Shown here in pieces: positions 37,637 to 43,474 of a stretch of DNA of 64,000 nt. The notes beneath the pieces were generated by a model, which was not told where the DNA came from, ran no database searches, and saw nothing but the letters and a program-made list of their open reading frames with translations. The stretch comes from Candidatus Eisenbacteria bacterium. Lineage in GTDB: Bacteria; Eisenbacteria; RBG-16-71-46; CAIMUX01; JAHJDP01. A program made the position numbers and the translations under genes. Numbering within the stretch: the first letter of the stretch is position 1; the number at the start of each line of letters is the position of its first letter. The DNA is taken from assembly GCA_018831195.1 (NCBI GenBank), contig JAHJDP010000023.1:62001-126000 (forward strand), written 5' to 3'.

Positions 37637-38929
37637 CTACTCCCACGAATTCACATAGTTTTCAAATCGATCCCGGTACTCCACCTCGGCGCCGGGATCG
37701 AACATAATAAGGGTCTCCACCAAGCCGTTGACGCGGTCCGGCTCTTCTTGATGCTTAATATAGAGATTCAGCAGCGTCCGTCCGGCCCAGAGCGGGAAGG
37801 GATTCTCCGCATTATCCTCATCTTCCTGCGGAGTGAACATCCGCGTGCCCAATCCGAAGGATTCATTGACCGGCGATTGATTCTTGCGTGAGAGGGAATT
37901 GTGAAAGTATTGATTCACCGCCCGTTCGAGCAGCTGCCGGGCTTCATCCACCCGGTCCAGTTTCAGATTGAGTTGGATCACCAGCATGTCGATCGGCGGC
38001 ACGACCTGGCCGGGATCGAGCCATTCGTCGAGGATGTCGAGGGATTCCTGGTACTTCCCCTGCGCCGCCAAAATCTGCGCATAGAGATGGGATGAGCCGA
38101 GATCATCCGGCGCCATCGCCGCGAGTTGCCGCGCTTCGTTTTCGGCATTCTCCACCTGCTTCAATCGCCAGAAAAGACCGGTTCGCAGTTCGGTCCGCAC
38201 CGGCCGCAAGTCCTCGGGAAGGGGCAGATCCTCGAGGATTTTCAGCGCCTCCTCATCCCGGCCGCAGGAGTACAGGGCCTGCGCCTGGTGAAAGCGGAAC
38301 ATCGGCCGGCCGGCTTCTTCGGCGGAAGCCTCGGCGAAACGATCCGACGCCTCGGCCCCCTTGCCCTCCTGCGTCAGGAGAAAGGCGTCGCGGAACACCG
38401 ATCCAAGATGGCGCAGCTCTTCAGCGCGTTCCTCCGGATAGGCGTTGAGGTAAAGCTCAAAAAGTTCATCTTTGTCTATATCGAGGGGGACGGAAGGATC
38501 CAGCTCGCACACCTCGGCGCGGCAGCCGCACGCCGGCCGGAGAACGGCTCCGCCGGATGGTTTTGTATCGACGCCGATCTCACTGTCGAGTGATTCATCC
38601 ATCCCCGGCATGAGCCTCGCCAGCATCTTTTTGGCTTCCTTCGAATCGAGATCCGCACCGGCGAGATCGACCGCGTTCCGGCAGCATTCCGCCGCCTCGA
38701 CCGGATCATTCTCGCCGAGCAGCCGTTCCGCCTCGGCAAGCTGCGCCTTTATCAATCCTTCGCGCGCCTTCTTGGATCCGTTCTCCGCCTGCATGAGGAT
38801 CATTTTGTTGTCGGTCTCTTTTTTAAGGATGGCTTTGTATTCTTTCAGGGCCTCGTAGAAAAAACCCTTGGCGAGCGCCGCGTCGGCGCTTTTTATCTTT
38901 CGCTCAGCATTGAAGAACCAGGCAGCCAT
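37637..38929 (-). CDS. Tetratricopeptide-repeat protein
   Basis: 430 residues with no signal peptide. Helical repeats are visible (ADAALAKGFFYEALKEYKAI, AEAERLLGENDPVEAAECCR, RFHQAQALYSCGRDEEALKI, AQILAAQGKYQESLDILDEW, LQLNLKLDRVDEARQLLERA-like), so TPRs run through much of the chain, with one Cys-containing stretch (ACGCRAEVC) of unknown use. It starts 21 bases downstream of the TIR-NB-ARC-TPR stop on the same strand, with GAGGA as a possible ribosome site, so it is probably in that transcript. It might be an adaptor for the TIR protein or an unrelated housekeeping gene. No function is recognised. Confidence 0.7.
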   Translation of the reverse strand: MAAWFFNAERKIKSADAALAKGFFYEALKEYKAILKKETDNKMILMQAENGSKKAREGLIKAQLAEAERLLGENDPVEAAECCRNAVDLAGADLDSKEAKKMLARLMPGMDESLDSEIGVDTKPSGGAVLRPACGCRAEVCELDPSVPLDIDKDELFELYLNAYPEERAEELRHLGSVFRDAFLLTQEGKGAEASDRFAEASAEEAGRPMFRFHQAQALYSCGRDEEALKILEDLPLPEDLRPVRTELRTGLFWRLKQVENAENEARQLAAMAPDDLGSSHLYAQILAAQGKYQESLDILDEWLDPGQVVPPIDMLVIQLNLKLDRVDEARQLLERAVNQYFHNSLSRKNQSPVNESFGLGTRMFTPQEDEDNAENPFPLWAGRTLLNLYIKHQEEPDRVNGLVETLIMFDPGAEVEYRDRFENYVNSWE

Positions 38930-38950: not shown

Positions 38951-41773
38951 TCAATCCGGTTTCTCGCCGGATATTTCATACCATTCCCGCCGCGCTTCCC
39001 GCGTCCACTCGTGTTCAGGCCGCTGATCGAGAATTTTCAGGGCTTTACGAAACATCTCTTCCGTCTCTTTGCTTTTCGCCTCATACCGATAGAGACGGGC
39101 CAATTTGTGAAAAAGGCGCCCCGCCTCGAATTTTATCTCGACATCAGCCCGATCCCAGTACTGAACCGCGGGATCGAGGTATTGATGAGCGTCGTCAAGC
39201 CTCCCCATTTCCCGGTAAAGTTCGCCGAGGTTGCCCATGACTCTCATGAATTCCGCCGAGTCGTCGCCGCAGACACGGCGGCGAATCTCCAATGATTCTA
39301 TCAAGGGTTTCTCCGCCTCATCAAGCCTGTTATGGGATTGAAGCAGCAGACCGATATTATTCAGTATTCTTGCATAAGTATAACTCTCTTTACCGCTATT
39401 CTTCTCTACCACTTTAAGTGTGCGCTGATAAACTTCCATCGCCGCATCAACCGCGGCCTCAGATCCAAGGAATTCAGCATAGGTTTCCAGCGGAAAAACC
39501 ATCTCTGGGTGTTCCGGGCCGAGAGTGCCGGCGCAGAACTCGAGCGCCCGCTTTAACAAAGGCTCGGCCGCTGCATTTCGCCCCGTCTCATAATATATGA
39601 TTCCAAGCTGGGCGAGCATGTGATGAATATAGGGGAACGAAGCACTAATCTTCCCGCTTTCAAGCAGATCAACGGCCCGCTTTATCAGCGGTTCGGCGCC
39701 CTGGCAATCACCACGATCCAGCAGCCGGCTGCTGAGATTGGTCAACACTCGCGCCAGTCTTTCACTGTCAGGAAAGGAGGTCTTGTCATAGATGGCGAGC
39801 GCCCGCCGGTAAACATTTTCCGCCTTTTCCTCTTGACCTGAATCCTTCAAGGCCATGGCATAATAGTTCAGATTATCGGCCACAGACGGGCTCTCCGGTC
39901 CTGAGGCGTTCTCTTCTATCTTTACGGCCTTGAGAAAAATCTCCGCTGCCTCCTCCGCCCGGCCGCGGACTCTCAAGAGACTTTCACCGTAATTAATCAG
40001 ATAGCTGCCCATGCGGGGATCATTTTCAGGAAGGAGCCTCTTTGCCAGTTCCAGTTTCAACCCTTCCCACACCAGACTTTTGTTATACAGACCTTTTCCG
40101 TAGTACCACTTTGCCAGCTCTTCATTGAGCGAAAGGGCGGTTTCGGCCTTCAACTCTTCAGGAATGAGATTCAGAAGGAATTCCGCGTGCGGCCGAAGCC
40201 CATCCCATATATCCCAGGTTATTGGATAATGAGCATTAACCGGACCGTACGCATTGACCATTTCCAATAGATGACCCAACCAGACGGATCGCCGGTCCCC
40301 GGCGGCATTCAGCCTCTCCACCATTTGTACAAGCGAGTGAACGAGGAAGGATTGCCCGGTATTATCAACCATCGCATAGCGGGTAAGATCTTTTAGGGCG
40401 TTTCGGATCATGAAGTTATCCGATGATGATTCCTTCGCGGGTTTTGATCCGGCCGGCAGCGGGAATTCGGAAAAGTGCGCCCGGACCCTCTCCACATTTT
40501 TGATGAAGAGCTCGATAGGAATCGGCTCAGGCGAAAGAAAGGATGAAAACCGAAGCAGGGTTCTCGCCTGAGGTGACAGCTTGGCCAGAGTCGCTTTCCA
40601 GGTTGTTACGACAGAATCGGGGTATTCGGTGGATCCCAGTACGCCCTCGGCGAGACAGTCCTGGGTCGCCTCCCGGTACAACTCCAGATAATCCTCAAAA
40701 CCGAAATCGGGCCCTTCCTCGGCGACATAGGCTGCAGCCTGCTCGAGAGCCAGGGGGAGGTAACCGAGGGTTTCGGCCAACCTGTCGCACGATTCACTTT
40801 GCGCTTCCCTCCCGTATCTCCCCGTTCTTCGCAATAACAACTCCCGGGCCGGGCCGGGATCAAGGACATAGACCCGGCTCGTGCCGATCCCCGGAGACCA
40901 GGCGGTGAAGCGCGACGTTATGAGAGTGCGGCATCCTCCGCTCTTGGGAATCCAACGTTGAATCGATTCCTCATCCTCAACATTGTCCAGAACGAGAAGC
41001 CGCTCGGTGCTCCCGTTCAACTCAACAAGCGCCCTTTGCGCCAGCTTTTCCTCATCCGTCCCGTTCTCTCGCTCAGGAAATAGGAGCTTCGCTATGCCCG
41101 CATAACCACTTCGAAGACTCTCCTCCTCGCGGGCATCAACCCAGAAAATCTGGGTGTAAAGCCGCCAAAACCTCTCGGCATAATGGCGGGCCAGCGTTGT
41201 CTTCCCGATCCCCCCCATGGCGACGATCGCGTGGATTTTCCCTTGCGATAGGGCAGCCGTCGGCTCTGCATGCAAGGCTTCATGAATCCGGTTCATCTCC
41301 CGCTCGCGTCCGACAAAGTGAGGATTTACGGTGTAGCGGAGAAAGGCCATCCGTTCCGATTTGATCGGGGCCGGCCTTCGAAGATGATCGCGGATCGCCG
41401 CAAGCAGCTTCTTCCAATCAGCCGGATCAGGATCCGCCGCATCGATGCTGATATTCTGCCACCGCTTCAATGGAGGCGTGGCCACATCATCCCAATCCCC
41501 TTCACAAAGCAAAGGGATGACTACCTCGGCGCCGTAGGTTTCAAACTTGGTCCATTCGGAGTTTTTCCACCGCGGGGTGAGAATCGGGAGCACGATGCGG
41601 CTGGCCTCAACCCCCTCTTCAATCTCCGCATGCCAATTGAATCCCGCCTGGAGACGGGCCCTATCAAACCAGACTTTGAAACCGGCGGATTGCAGCCGTT
41701 GATAAAGATGTTCGGCCTGCGCCGAATCTTCAGATTGATAGCTGAGAAAAAGGTCGTAGGATGCGCTCTGCAT
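38951..41773 (-). CDS. TIR-NB-ARC-TPR protein (bacterial NLR-like STAND ATPase)
   Basis: 940 residues from the ATG at 41773 (GGGGAG six bases upstream). The TIR domain spans residues 5-145: YDLFLSYQSEDSAQAEHLYQ at its start, then SEWTKFE with Glu78 in the position of the catalytic glutamate of NAD-cleaving TIRs. The NB-ARC module follows: Walker A MGGIGKTT (186-193), Walker B LLVLDNVED (259-267), TLITSRF (283-289), and the GLPLAL-like LGYLPLALEQAAA (336-348). From about residue 560 to the end are kinesin-light-chain-like TPRs (for example NLNYYAMALKDSGQEEKAEN, NIGLLLQSHNRLDEAEKPLI). By family, TPRs sense a ligand, NB-ARC oligomerises and TIR consumes NAD or makes a cyclic ADP-ribose signal; this is inferred for the present protein. 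It is divergent from a SLOG-4TM gene, 93 bases apart. Bacterial TIR-STANDs are often antiphage abortive-infection proteins. Confidence 0.9.
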   Translation of the reverse strand: MQSASYDLFLSYQSEDSAQAEHLYQRLQSAGFKVWFDRARLQAGFNWHAEIEEGVEASRIVLPILTPRWKNSEWTKFETYGAEVVIPLLCEGDWDDVATPPLKRWQNISIDAADPDPADWKKLLAAIRDHLRRPAPIKSERMAFLRYTVNPHFVGREREMNRIHEALHAEPTAALSQGKIHAIVAMGGIGKTTLARHYAERFWRLYTQIFWVDAREEESLRSGYAGIAKLLFPERENGTDEEKLAQRALVELNGSTERLLVLDNVEDEESIQRWIPKSGGCRTLITSRFTAWSPGIGTSRVYVLDPGPARELLLRRTGRYGREAQSESCDRLAETLGYLPLALEQAAAYVAEEGPDFGFEDYLELYREATQDCLAEGVLGSTEYPDSVVTTWKATLAKLSPQARTLLRFSSFLSPEPIPIELFIKNVERVRAHFSEFPLPAGSKPAKESSSDNFMIRNALKDLTRYAMVDNTGQSFLVHSLVQMVERLNAAGDRRSVWLGHLLEMVNAYGPVNAHYPITWDIWDGLRPHAEFLLNLIPEELKAETALSLNEELAKWYYGKGLYNKSLVWEGLKLELAKRLLPENDPRMGSYLINYGESLLRVRGRAEEAAEIFLKAVKIEENASGPESPSVADNLNYYAMALKDSGQEEKAENVYRRALAIYDKTSFPDSERLARVLTNLSSRLLDRGDCQGAEPLIKRAVDLLESGKISASFPYIHHMLAQLGIIYYETGRNAAAEPLLKRALEFCAGTLGPEHPEMVFPLETYAEFLGSEAAVDAAMEVYQRTLKVVEKNSGKESYTYARILNNIGLLLQSHNRLDEAEKPLIESLEIRRRVCGDDSAEFMRVMGNLGELYREMGRLDDAHQYLDPAVQYWDRADVEIKFEAGRLFHKLARLYRYEAKSKETEEMFRKALKILDQRPEHEWTREARREWYEISGEKPD

Positions 41774-41866
41774 GAAGAACTCCCCTCGCATTTCACAGCT
41801 TTCAGTTATACCATATTCCCCTGACGGTGAGGTAGATCGGTTCGGCTCCGAGCTAAAGGATCTGAT
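41774..41866. promoter_or_regulatory. Short divergent control region of the TIR and SLOG genes
   Basis: 93 bases separate the two start codons. It must hold the ribosome sites for both genes (GGGGAG for the minus gene, AAAGGA at 41855-41860 for the plus gene) and probably their promoters. The AT-rich core near 41805-41815 (TTATACCATATT) could supply -10 elements in both directions. No clear operator palindrome is seen. Confidence 0.4.
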
Positions 41867-43474
41867 ATGACTGATGGTGAGAATCTCCGCATAGGAGTGA
41901 CCGGACATAGAATCCTTCCCAACCCCGCGGCGGCGGCCTTGGCTGTACAAAAAGCCGTCAAGGAAATCATCGCAGAGTATTTACAGAACAAAAAGCCCTC
42001 CTCTCCCGTTTTCATTCTCTCCTCCCTGGCGGAAGGCGCGGATCGAATCGCAACGCGTGAATTGCTGAGGCACCCGAATTCGGAACTTCATGCGATCCTT
42101 CCTCTCGAAATCGATGATTACATGACGGATTTCAAATCCGCCGATTCGCAGAAGGAGTTTGCGGATCTCATCGCCCTGGCCGGGAAAACCGTGATCCTTC
42201 CTTCACAAAAGGATCGGTCACGGGCCTATGAAGCCGCGGGTCACCACGTCGTCGATACCTGTGACCTGCTGATCGCTGTCTGGGACGGGCAGCCGGCGAG
42301 GGGGCGGGGCGGCACGGCGGATATTGTCGCCTATGCCCGCCGGAAGAATCGGCCCATCGTCTGGATCCACAGCGAGCATCCCGGGCAGATCATTCGTGAG
42401 CCGATACCCCCTAGATGCAAGGTAGATTGGGCGCCCATCGAAGAGGAGCGATTGAGGCGGCATGAGGTCGAAGAGAAACAGAAGCTGGAGTCGACGCTTG
42501 AAAAGAGCCTGGCCCTGGCGGCGGGCAATACGACTCCGGAGGCCGCCGCGCTTTTGAAGGAGCGCCTGCGCCGGATTTTGGAGTATTTTATTCCCACCTA
42601 TGTGAAGGCCGATCAATCCGCTATTTTCTATCAAGCCCGGCATCGGAACGCCACCAGGGCGGTTTTTCTTCTCGCCGCTTCGGCTGTCATAATCGTTTCA
42701 GCTCAATTCATATTTCATCTTCCGCATCTGCTTGTTCTGGGCGAGGTGCTGGCCATCGCGACCATCCTTACCCTATTTTATTGGAGTAACTGGAAAGGCT
42801 GGCATCGCCATTGGGTCGACTGCCGTTTGCTGGCTGAATGGATTCGCTGCGGCATCTTCGTGGACTTTTTGAGGGATGACGACTCGGATCAGGAAGGCCG
42901 TCAGTGGACATCAGAGTGGATCATCAACTCCTGGTGCATCGATCATTTTCAGGATCTCCGGATGCATCAACAGAAGCTCAAGGCATTGACGGAAGACTCT
43001 CTTCCGGTTCTCAAAGATTTTTTTAGGACGGCCTGGCTGAACGATCAGAGAGTCTTTCATGAACGAACGGCGGCAAGAGAAATTAAGAGGCATAACAGGA
43101 TCTCCCGTGCGAGTGAAGCCTGTTTCTGGATGACCTTCATTGCGGCGATCCTGCATCTCCTGCCCCATTCCCTGTATCCCGGCCTGCATGCCTATCATCA
43201 ATCAATTGCCAGGATCCTGACATTTCTTGTCATCGCCCTGCCGGCGGCAGGTTCGGCCTTTGCAGGATTGCGTTCGCATTTTCAGTATAAAAAATTGAGC
43301 AGGCGATCAGGGATGATGGCGTTCCGTCTGGAGAAACTGGATCATCAGCTTGACCGGATGAACAGCTTGGAAGAGCTCAAGGGGAAGGTTCTGACGGCGG
43401 AGTCATTGATGCTTCATGAAAACACCGATTGGCATGTGACGATCGGATCGAATCCGCCGGAGAAATTGGCGTAG
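41867..43474 (+). CDS. SLOG domain fused to a four-TM (SLATT-like) membrane module
   Basis: 535 residues; AAAGGA lies six bases before the ATG. Residues 8-170 form a SLOG Rossmann-like domain: IGVTGHR (9-15), LSSLAEGADRIATREL (51-66), LLIAVWDGQPARGRGGTADI (134-153), the nucleotide-binding loops of this family. After a charged coiled stretch (about 190-245) come two hairpins of membrane helices: about 264-283 and 287-306, then about 415-436 and 445-466, separated by a conserved-looking WHRHWVDCRLLAEW segment that is typical of SLATT effectors (SMODS and SLOG-associating 2TM). By family, the SLOG part senses a nucleotide-derived ligand and the membrane part forms a pore or perturbs the membrane. 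Adjacent to and divergent from the TIR-NB-ARC-TPR gene. Cytoplasmic sensor domain expected; no enzyme motif in the C-terminus. Confidence 0.8.
   Translation: MTDGENLRIGVTGHRILPNPAAAALAVQKAVKEIIAEYLQNKKPSSPVFILSSLAEGADRIATRELLRHPNSELHAILPLEIDDYMTDFKSADSQKEFADLIALAGKTVILPSQKDRSRAYEAAGHHVVDTCDLLIAVWDGQPARGRGGTADIVAYARRKNRPIVWIHSEHPGQIIREPIPPRCKVDWAPIEEERLRRHEVEEKQKLESTLEKSLALAAGNTTPEAAALLKERLRRILEYFIPTYVKADQSAIFYQARHRNATRAVFLLAASAVIIVSAQFIFHLPHLLVLGEVLAIATILTLFYWSNWKGWHRHWVDCRLLAEWIRCGIFVDFLRDDDSDQEGRQWTSEWIINSWCIDHFQDLRMHQQKLKALTEDSLPVLKDFFRTAWLNDQRVFHERTAAREIKRHNRISRASEACFWMTFIAAILHLLPHSLYPGLHAYHQSIARILTFLVIALPAAGSAFAGLRSHFQYKKLSRRSGMMAFRLEKLDHQLDRMNSLEELKGKVLTAESLMLHENTDWHVTIGSNPPEKLA

Follow-up and report, generated by a model that had tools for sequence, protein, structure and literature searches.

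A divergent TIR-NB-ARC-TPR and SLOG-SLATT-SLATT gene pair with predicted Thoeris-like logic in Candidatus Eisenbacteria

A network of SLATT, SLOG and TIR domains, with SLOG as the sensor, was reportedly predicted by Burroughs et al. in 2015. In PMC9503650 and PMC7159879, SLATT is predicted to act in the membrane as an effector that ADPr regulates and that is coupled to TIR, and the SLOG superfamily is described as including enzymes (PMC9503650). Thoeris systems couple TIR proteins to ThsA-type effectors that are SIR2-SLOG, TM-macro, or caspase proteins in types I, II, and IV, respectively. Type I consists of the TIR protein ThsB and the SIR2-SLOG protein ThsA, while in type II, where the signal is His-ADPR, the target of the TIR product is a transmembrane effector, through which the membrane is perturbed (PMC12847820). 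DUF4062 has been reported as a TIR-like NADase with a role in defence against phages; the corresponding system, Swarozyc, was described as acting by NAD+ depletion, and neither SLOG nor SLATT is mentioned in its description (PMC13174449). In phages, proteins with a RyR domain bind or cleave 2'/3'cADPR (PMC13232231).

The window, a 64,000-nucleotide stretch of a Candidatus Eisenbacteria contig, carries a predicted TIR enzyme and a separate predicted effector bearing SLOG, as in type I Thoeris, and its SLOG fold matches that of ThsA (7uxs). Unlike type I, the predicted output consists of two SLATT membrane modules rather than SIR2, and the TIR domain is part of a larger predicted sensor of the NB-ARC-TPR (STAND) type. 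By analogy with type II, a TIR signal would act on a transmembrane effector, whereas the putative sensor domain is SLOG rather than macro and the membrane part is SLATT. Because the partner, SLOG-SLATT-SLATT, is not a SIR2, macro, or caspase effector, the pair is not a Thoeris member; most likely, it shares the Thoeris logic while falling outside the family. Swarozyc is similar in its TIR-like NADase, and DUF4062-STAND genes adjoin relatives of the SLOG-SLATT gene (L023, L024, L030), but the TIR domain of the window is canonical. The plant TIR-NLR Roq1 offers an analogy in its TIR-NB-ARC order and NAD-derived signalling, with the differences that the window protein has TPRs instead of LRRs and that the SLOG-SLATT protein would replace the downstream plant machinery.

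The first-pass annotation, made from the sequence alone, knew of no description of this combination. The pairing of SLOG-SLATT_3-SLATT_1 with TIR-NB-ARC-TPR was indeed not found in the covered parts of PMC9503650 and PMC7159879, and the December 2025 TIR survey (bioRxiv 2025.12.03.692087) lies outside this comparison. Novelty was nevertheless overstated, since the coupling of SLOG, SLATT, and TIR had already been predicted as a network, with which the pair shares SLATT as the ADPr-regulated, TIR-coupled membrane effector and SLOG as the sensor. The pair is thus a variation within a previously predicted coupling, and no first description is claimed.

Architecture of the locus and its proteins

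Both reading frames are real, as their domain matches greatly exceed what chance would give. ATG 41773, preceded by GAGGGGAG, is the start of the TIR gene, and ATG 41867, preceded by AAAGG, that of the SLOG-SLATT-SLATT gene. A TTG start for the TIR gene (999-aa frame, to 41950) overlaps the divergent gene and is not likely. The divergent orientation and the 93-base gap were confirmed as first annotated, and the gap contains no convincing sigma-70 promoter match. The neighbouring 430-aa TPR gene is possibly co-transcribed with the TIR gene, and nothing ties its product to the module; synteny comparison with its homologues in relatives gave no evidence of an empty site. The surroundings are ordinary metabolic genes with no visible defence island.

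Features of the locus (positions in the window)
Feature	Coordinates	Strand	Length	Remark
TPR protein gene	37637..38929	-	430 aa	21 bp downstream of the TIR gene, co-oriented
TIR-NB-ARC-TPR gene	38951..41773	-	940 aa	predicted sensor and NAD-processing enzyme
Intergenic region between the divergent TIR and SLOG genes	41774..41866		93 bp	would carry both promoters
SLOG-SLATT-SLATT gene	41867..43474	+	535 aa	predicted ligand-gated membrane effector

The 940-aa protein is divided into TIR (1-130), NB-ARC (about 150-490), and TPR (about 580-915) regions, which Pfam recognizes as TIR_2 (1.4e-20, residues 9-124), NB-ARC (4.4e-8, 157-290), and TPR_12 (7.6e-39). Five NB-ARC motifs occur in order, namely the P-loop AMGGIGKTTLA (read from the sequence), kinase-2 LLVLDNVED, RNBS-B LITSR, GLPL GYLPLAL, and an MHD-like FLVHSLV. 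This full series followed by TPRs identifies a STAND/NLR protein and bears out the complete NB-ARC module and TPRs seen at first. The candidate catalytic residue, Glu78, also held up, as it aligns with the catalytic glutamate, and all 61 aligned TIRs having a residue in this column carry E. Sequence matches in the PDB include bacterial TIR domains, AfsR, Roq1, and the TPRs of kinesin light chain.

The PADLOC models for ThsB match only the TIR domain (4e-7). A literature search led to no paper behind the model called "Thoeris type III ThcB4". The NCBIfam equivalog FxSxx_TPR (FxsT, NF040586) scores 320.5 against a cut-off of 300 via the NB-ARC-TPR part, in which the two proteins are alike. The FxSxx-COOH system, however, needs the radical SAM partner FxsB, whose best match in the genome reaches 35.8 bits against a cut-off of 370. 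Membership of that system was therefore rejected and the name FxsT should not be transferred. As a basis for naming TIR-NB-ARC-TPR proteins, the equivalog model seems to be drawn too broadly.

The 535-aa protein consists of a SLOG domain (1-172), a SLATT_3-like 2TM module (244-326), and a SLATT_1-like 2TM module (391-522). An AlphaFold model from an alignment of 50 sequences has a mean pLDDT of 90.4. The best Foldseek match of its N-terminal domain is YpsA (2nx2; E 8.6e-6, TMt 0.74); DprA also matches, as does the SLOG domain of BcThsA in complex with 3'cADPR (7uxs), with a probability of 1.00 and a TMt of only 0.43. Despite the lack of a Pfam SLOG match, the modelled domain is thus a Rossmannoid, YpsA-like SLOG fold, in line with the first-pass assignment. 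The catalytic Glu of LOG phosphoribohydrolases follows the GT of their PGGxGT motif by three residues. In the corresponding column (position 153), 29 of the 50 homologues have I, 13 have V, and not one has Glu, so a receptor seems likelier than a LOG enzyme. The putative nucleotide-site residues TGHR, EGAD, VWDG, and GGT are strongly conserved in the same set. This conservation pattern favours a binding domain.

SLATT_1 is matched below the curated cut-offs of both Pfam (7.5e-5; 23.2 vs 26.3) and NCBIfam (1.2e-7; 31.7 vs 41), and the SLATT_3 match is weak. A 35% identical homologue from the same phylum (L017) exceeds the NCBIfam SLATT_1 cut-off (51.5 vs 41). By hydropathy, residues 260-308 contain two TM helices, and single helices lie near 415-437 and near 445-470, that is, two per SLATT-like module, as is characteristic of SLATT; the four helices counted initially are therefore right and can be refined to two consecutive modules. 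Foldseek gave no convincing match for the SLATT part of the model, a PDB sequence search with the whole protein returned chance matches only, and PADLOC returned none, with no SIR2, macro, or caspase domain present.

Genomic linkage and partner genes

Scans with the 535-aa protein alone found nothing in genome or viral contigs, and no phage record matched; a family alignment was needed to find relatives, and with viral contigs it gave mainly SLOG-only matches. One genome per GTDB species was scanned with the SLOG motif as the only anchor, yielding 282 relatives, from which 80 loci were kept without regard to their neighbours. In local profile searches, these loci yielded 60 SLOG-SLATT_3-SLATT_1 proteins of full length, a number that rises to 67 with the window and earlier loci, and the scan set forms 38 clusters at 50% identity. 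Linkage beyond this genome, the check proposed in the first-pass annotation, was found: a TIR gene lies within 1.5 kb of the SLOG-SLATT-SLATT gene in 18 of the 38 clusters, about half having none at this distance. The distant flanks (3-7.5 kb) of the same loci served as the control and contain 4 TIR genes in 272 kb, compared with 18 in the 107 kb close to the anchors (11-fold, p 2.9e-7). At 35% identity, the linkage is seen in 4 of 9 clusters (p 6e-3), making its deeper independence modest. On the effector tree, the TIR partner was gained or lost (presence/absence change) 13 times. The divergent layout of the window recurs in Novosphingobium L016 (125-bp gap), where the partner is a 657-aa TIR protein, and in L032 (174-bp gap).

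The TIR partners comprise TIR-nSTAND1 (L073, L083), TIR-TPR (L063, L078, L096, L101, L102), TIR-WD40 (L091), and TIR-FHA proteins (L061, L100), as well as SIR2-TIR proteins with an N-terminal SIR2-like domain (L042, L079). L017 encodes TIR-NPHP3_N-TPR plus a second small TIR, and L009 a TIR partner and a separate nSTAND1 protein. STAND-type partners occur in several lineages (L017, L073/L083, L009, L023/L030, L024), yet most TIR partners are not STAND proteins. DUF4062-STAND-TPR adjoins SLOG-SLATT-SLATT in L023 and L030, and a DUF4062-type protein with WD40 in L024. The nearest sequence relatives of the window protein (L024, L026-L028) have RyR or DUF4062 neighbours rather than a canonical TIR; among close relatives, RyR proteins lie alongside in L024, L027, and L028 and DUF4062 proteins in L023 and L024. 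TIR, DUF4062, or RyR lies within 1.5 kb in 24/38 clusters, and patatin genes are also enriched near the anchors. The chemistry of the TIR, DUF4062, and RyR partners suggests convergence on NAD-derived signalling. A recurrent link between TIR and SLOG-TM proteins thus stands, while a STAND-TIR protein as the defining partner does not, since DUF4062, RyR-TrkA, or patatin may take its place; the earlier interpretation as a whole is partly supported.

Several neighbouring arrangements were observed in passing. In Thermincola, a more distant relative, DUF4062-STAND-TPR, TrkA-RyR, and SLOG-SLATT-SLATT are consecutive on one strand (L030, 2712-9743). SLOG-only proteins without SLATT stand beside RyR-domain or RyR-TrkA proteins, with a TIR gene a few kb away, in L035, L040, L041, L044, L056, and L076, which suggests a second TIR/RyR/SLOG system. 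SLOG-only genes also run with TIR and caspase-like genes in Bacillus subtilis pBS72 (L015, 4635-6489) and Methylorubrum (L012, 5974-8383), an arrangement similar to type IV Thoeris plus a SLOG component, and one clusters with two TIR genes and a HEPN gene on a Novosphingobium ES2-1 plasmid (L010, 4372-7709).

Viewed from the TIR-NB-ARC-TPR side, linkage is partial, as the neighbourhoods inspected in detail in Prosthecochloris and Nocardia (L139, L140) contain no SLATT gene. Methylobacterium indicum pVL1_5 is the only plasmid record in which 80% or more of the TIR-NB-ARC query from the window is matched; in most plasmid relatives of the NB-ARC part, the match does not extend to TIR. On pVL1_5, 40 bp separate a TIR-NB-ARC-TPR gene from a DUF4231/SLATT gene. 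On its other side, the latter has a divergent neighbour encoding a TPR protein, whose N-terminus matches DUF4062 weakly and below the cut-off. Elsewhere, this receptor type is therefore paired with a SLATT effector that has no SLOG. In Sinorhizobium L014, a related TPR gene without TIR is divergent from a SLOG-only gene.

Proposed mechanism and alternatives

Since many unrelated bacteria have the membrane partner next to NAD enzymes of the TIR type, the pair is probably a Thoeris-like anti-phage alarm-and-kill unit. We assign a probability of roughly 0.6 to a two-gene module for abortive infection, or a similar conflict, with Thoeris-like logic. The TPR/NB-ARC part would sense an invader product and oligomerise, and the assembled TIR domains would cleave NAD+ via E78 to an ADP-ribose-type signal (a cyclic ADPR isomer or an ADPR conjugate). 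This signal would bind the YpsA-type SLOG domain, whereupon the paired SLATT modules, with their four TM helices, would open or assemble in the membrane and arrest or kill the cell. We infer each functional step (catalysis, signal, binding, pore, and defence) from anatomy, conservation, and linkage.

The principal alternative, which appears unlikely, is that the TIR-NB-ARC-TPR protein is itself the effector, depleting NAD+ upon activation like stand-alone TIR-STAND defence, and that the SLOG-SLATT protein is an independent effector or regulator responding to another nucleotide. TIR-like DUF4062 NADases are able to act alone (Swarozyc, PMC13174449), the L139 receptor has no SLATT neighbour, and SLOG-SLATT genes also occur beside patatin or RyR-TrkA without TIR; against such independence stand the 11-fold TIR enrichment within 1.5 kb and the recurrence of divergent or operonic pairing. 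The varied partners (TIR, SIR2-TIR, DUF4062, RyR, patatin) would also suit a SLOG-SLATT protein that answers a signal of broader origin, with TIR as a swappable upstream module, or one whose SLOG domain modifies or degrades the signal as a brake, given that enzymes occur in the SLOG superfamily (PMC9503650). This is more doubtful still, as the LOG glutamate position is I/V in 42/50 homologues and never Glu, and fusion to membrane modules fits a receptor-effector.

That the two genes are unrelated and merely divergent is very improbable. The host genome does contain 8 TIR_2 matches and the locus lies among metabolic genes, but with 8 matches in 5.24 Mb we estimate that such an adjacency would arise by chance in about 1% of cases, and other phyla show this pairing as well.

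A wider reading of the two-gene module is tentative, at somewhat less than even odds. The window pair may represent a widespread, as yet undescribed Thoeris-like class in which a conserved SLOG-SLATT-SLATT receptor-pore is served by interchangeable sensor-NADases (TIR-STAND, DUF4062-STAND, TIR-TPR/WD40, SIR2-TIR), often near RyR proteins, with the window version as the bacterial equivalent of a plant TIR-NLR that signals to a membrane effector further down the pathway. If the two-gene module is real, TIR/DUF4062 NADases would be tied to the predicted SLATT "pore", and one compact, directly testable bacterial system of two genes would combine a sensor of the NLR type with a TIR domain that makes the signal and a membrane effector gated by SLOG, a simple parallel to plant TIR-NLR immunity.
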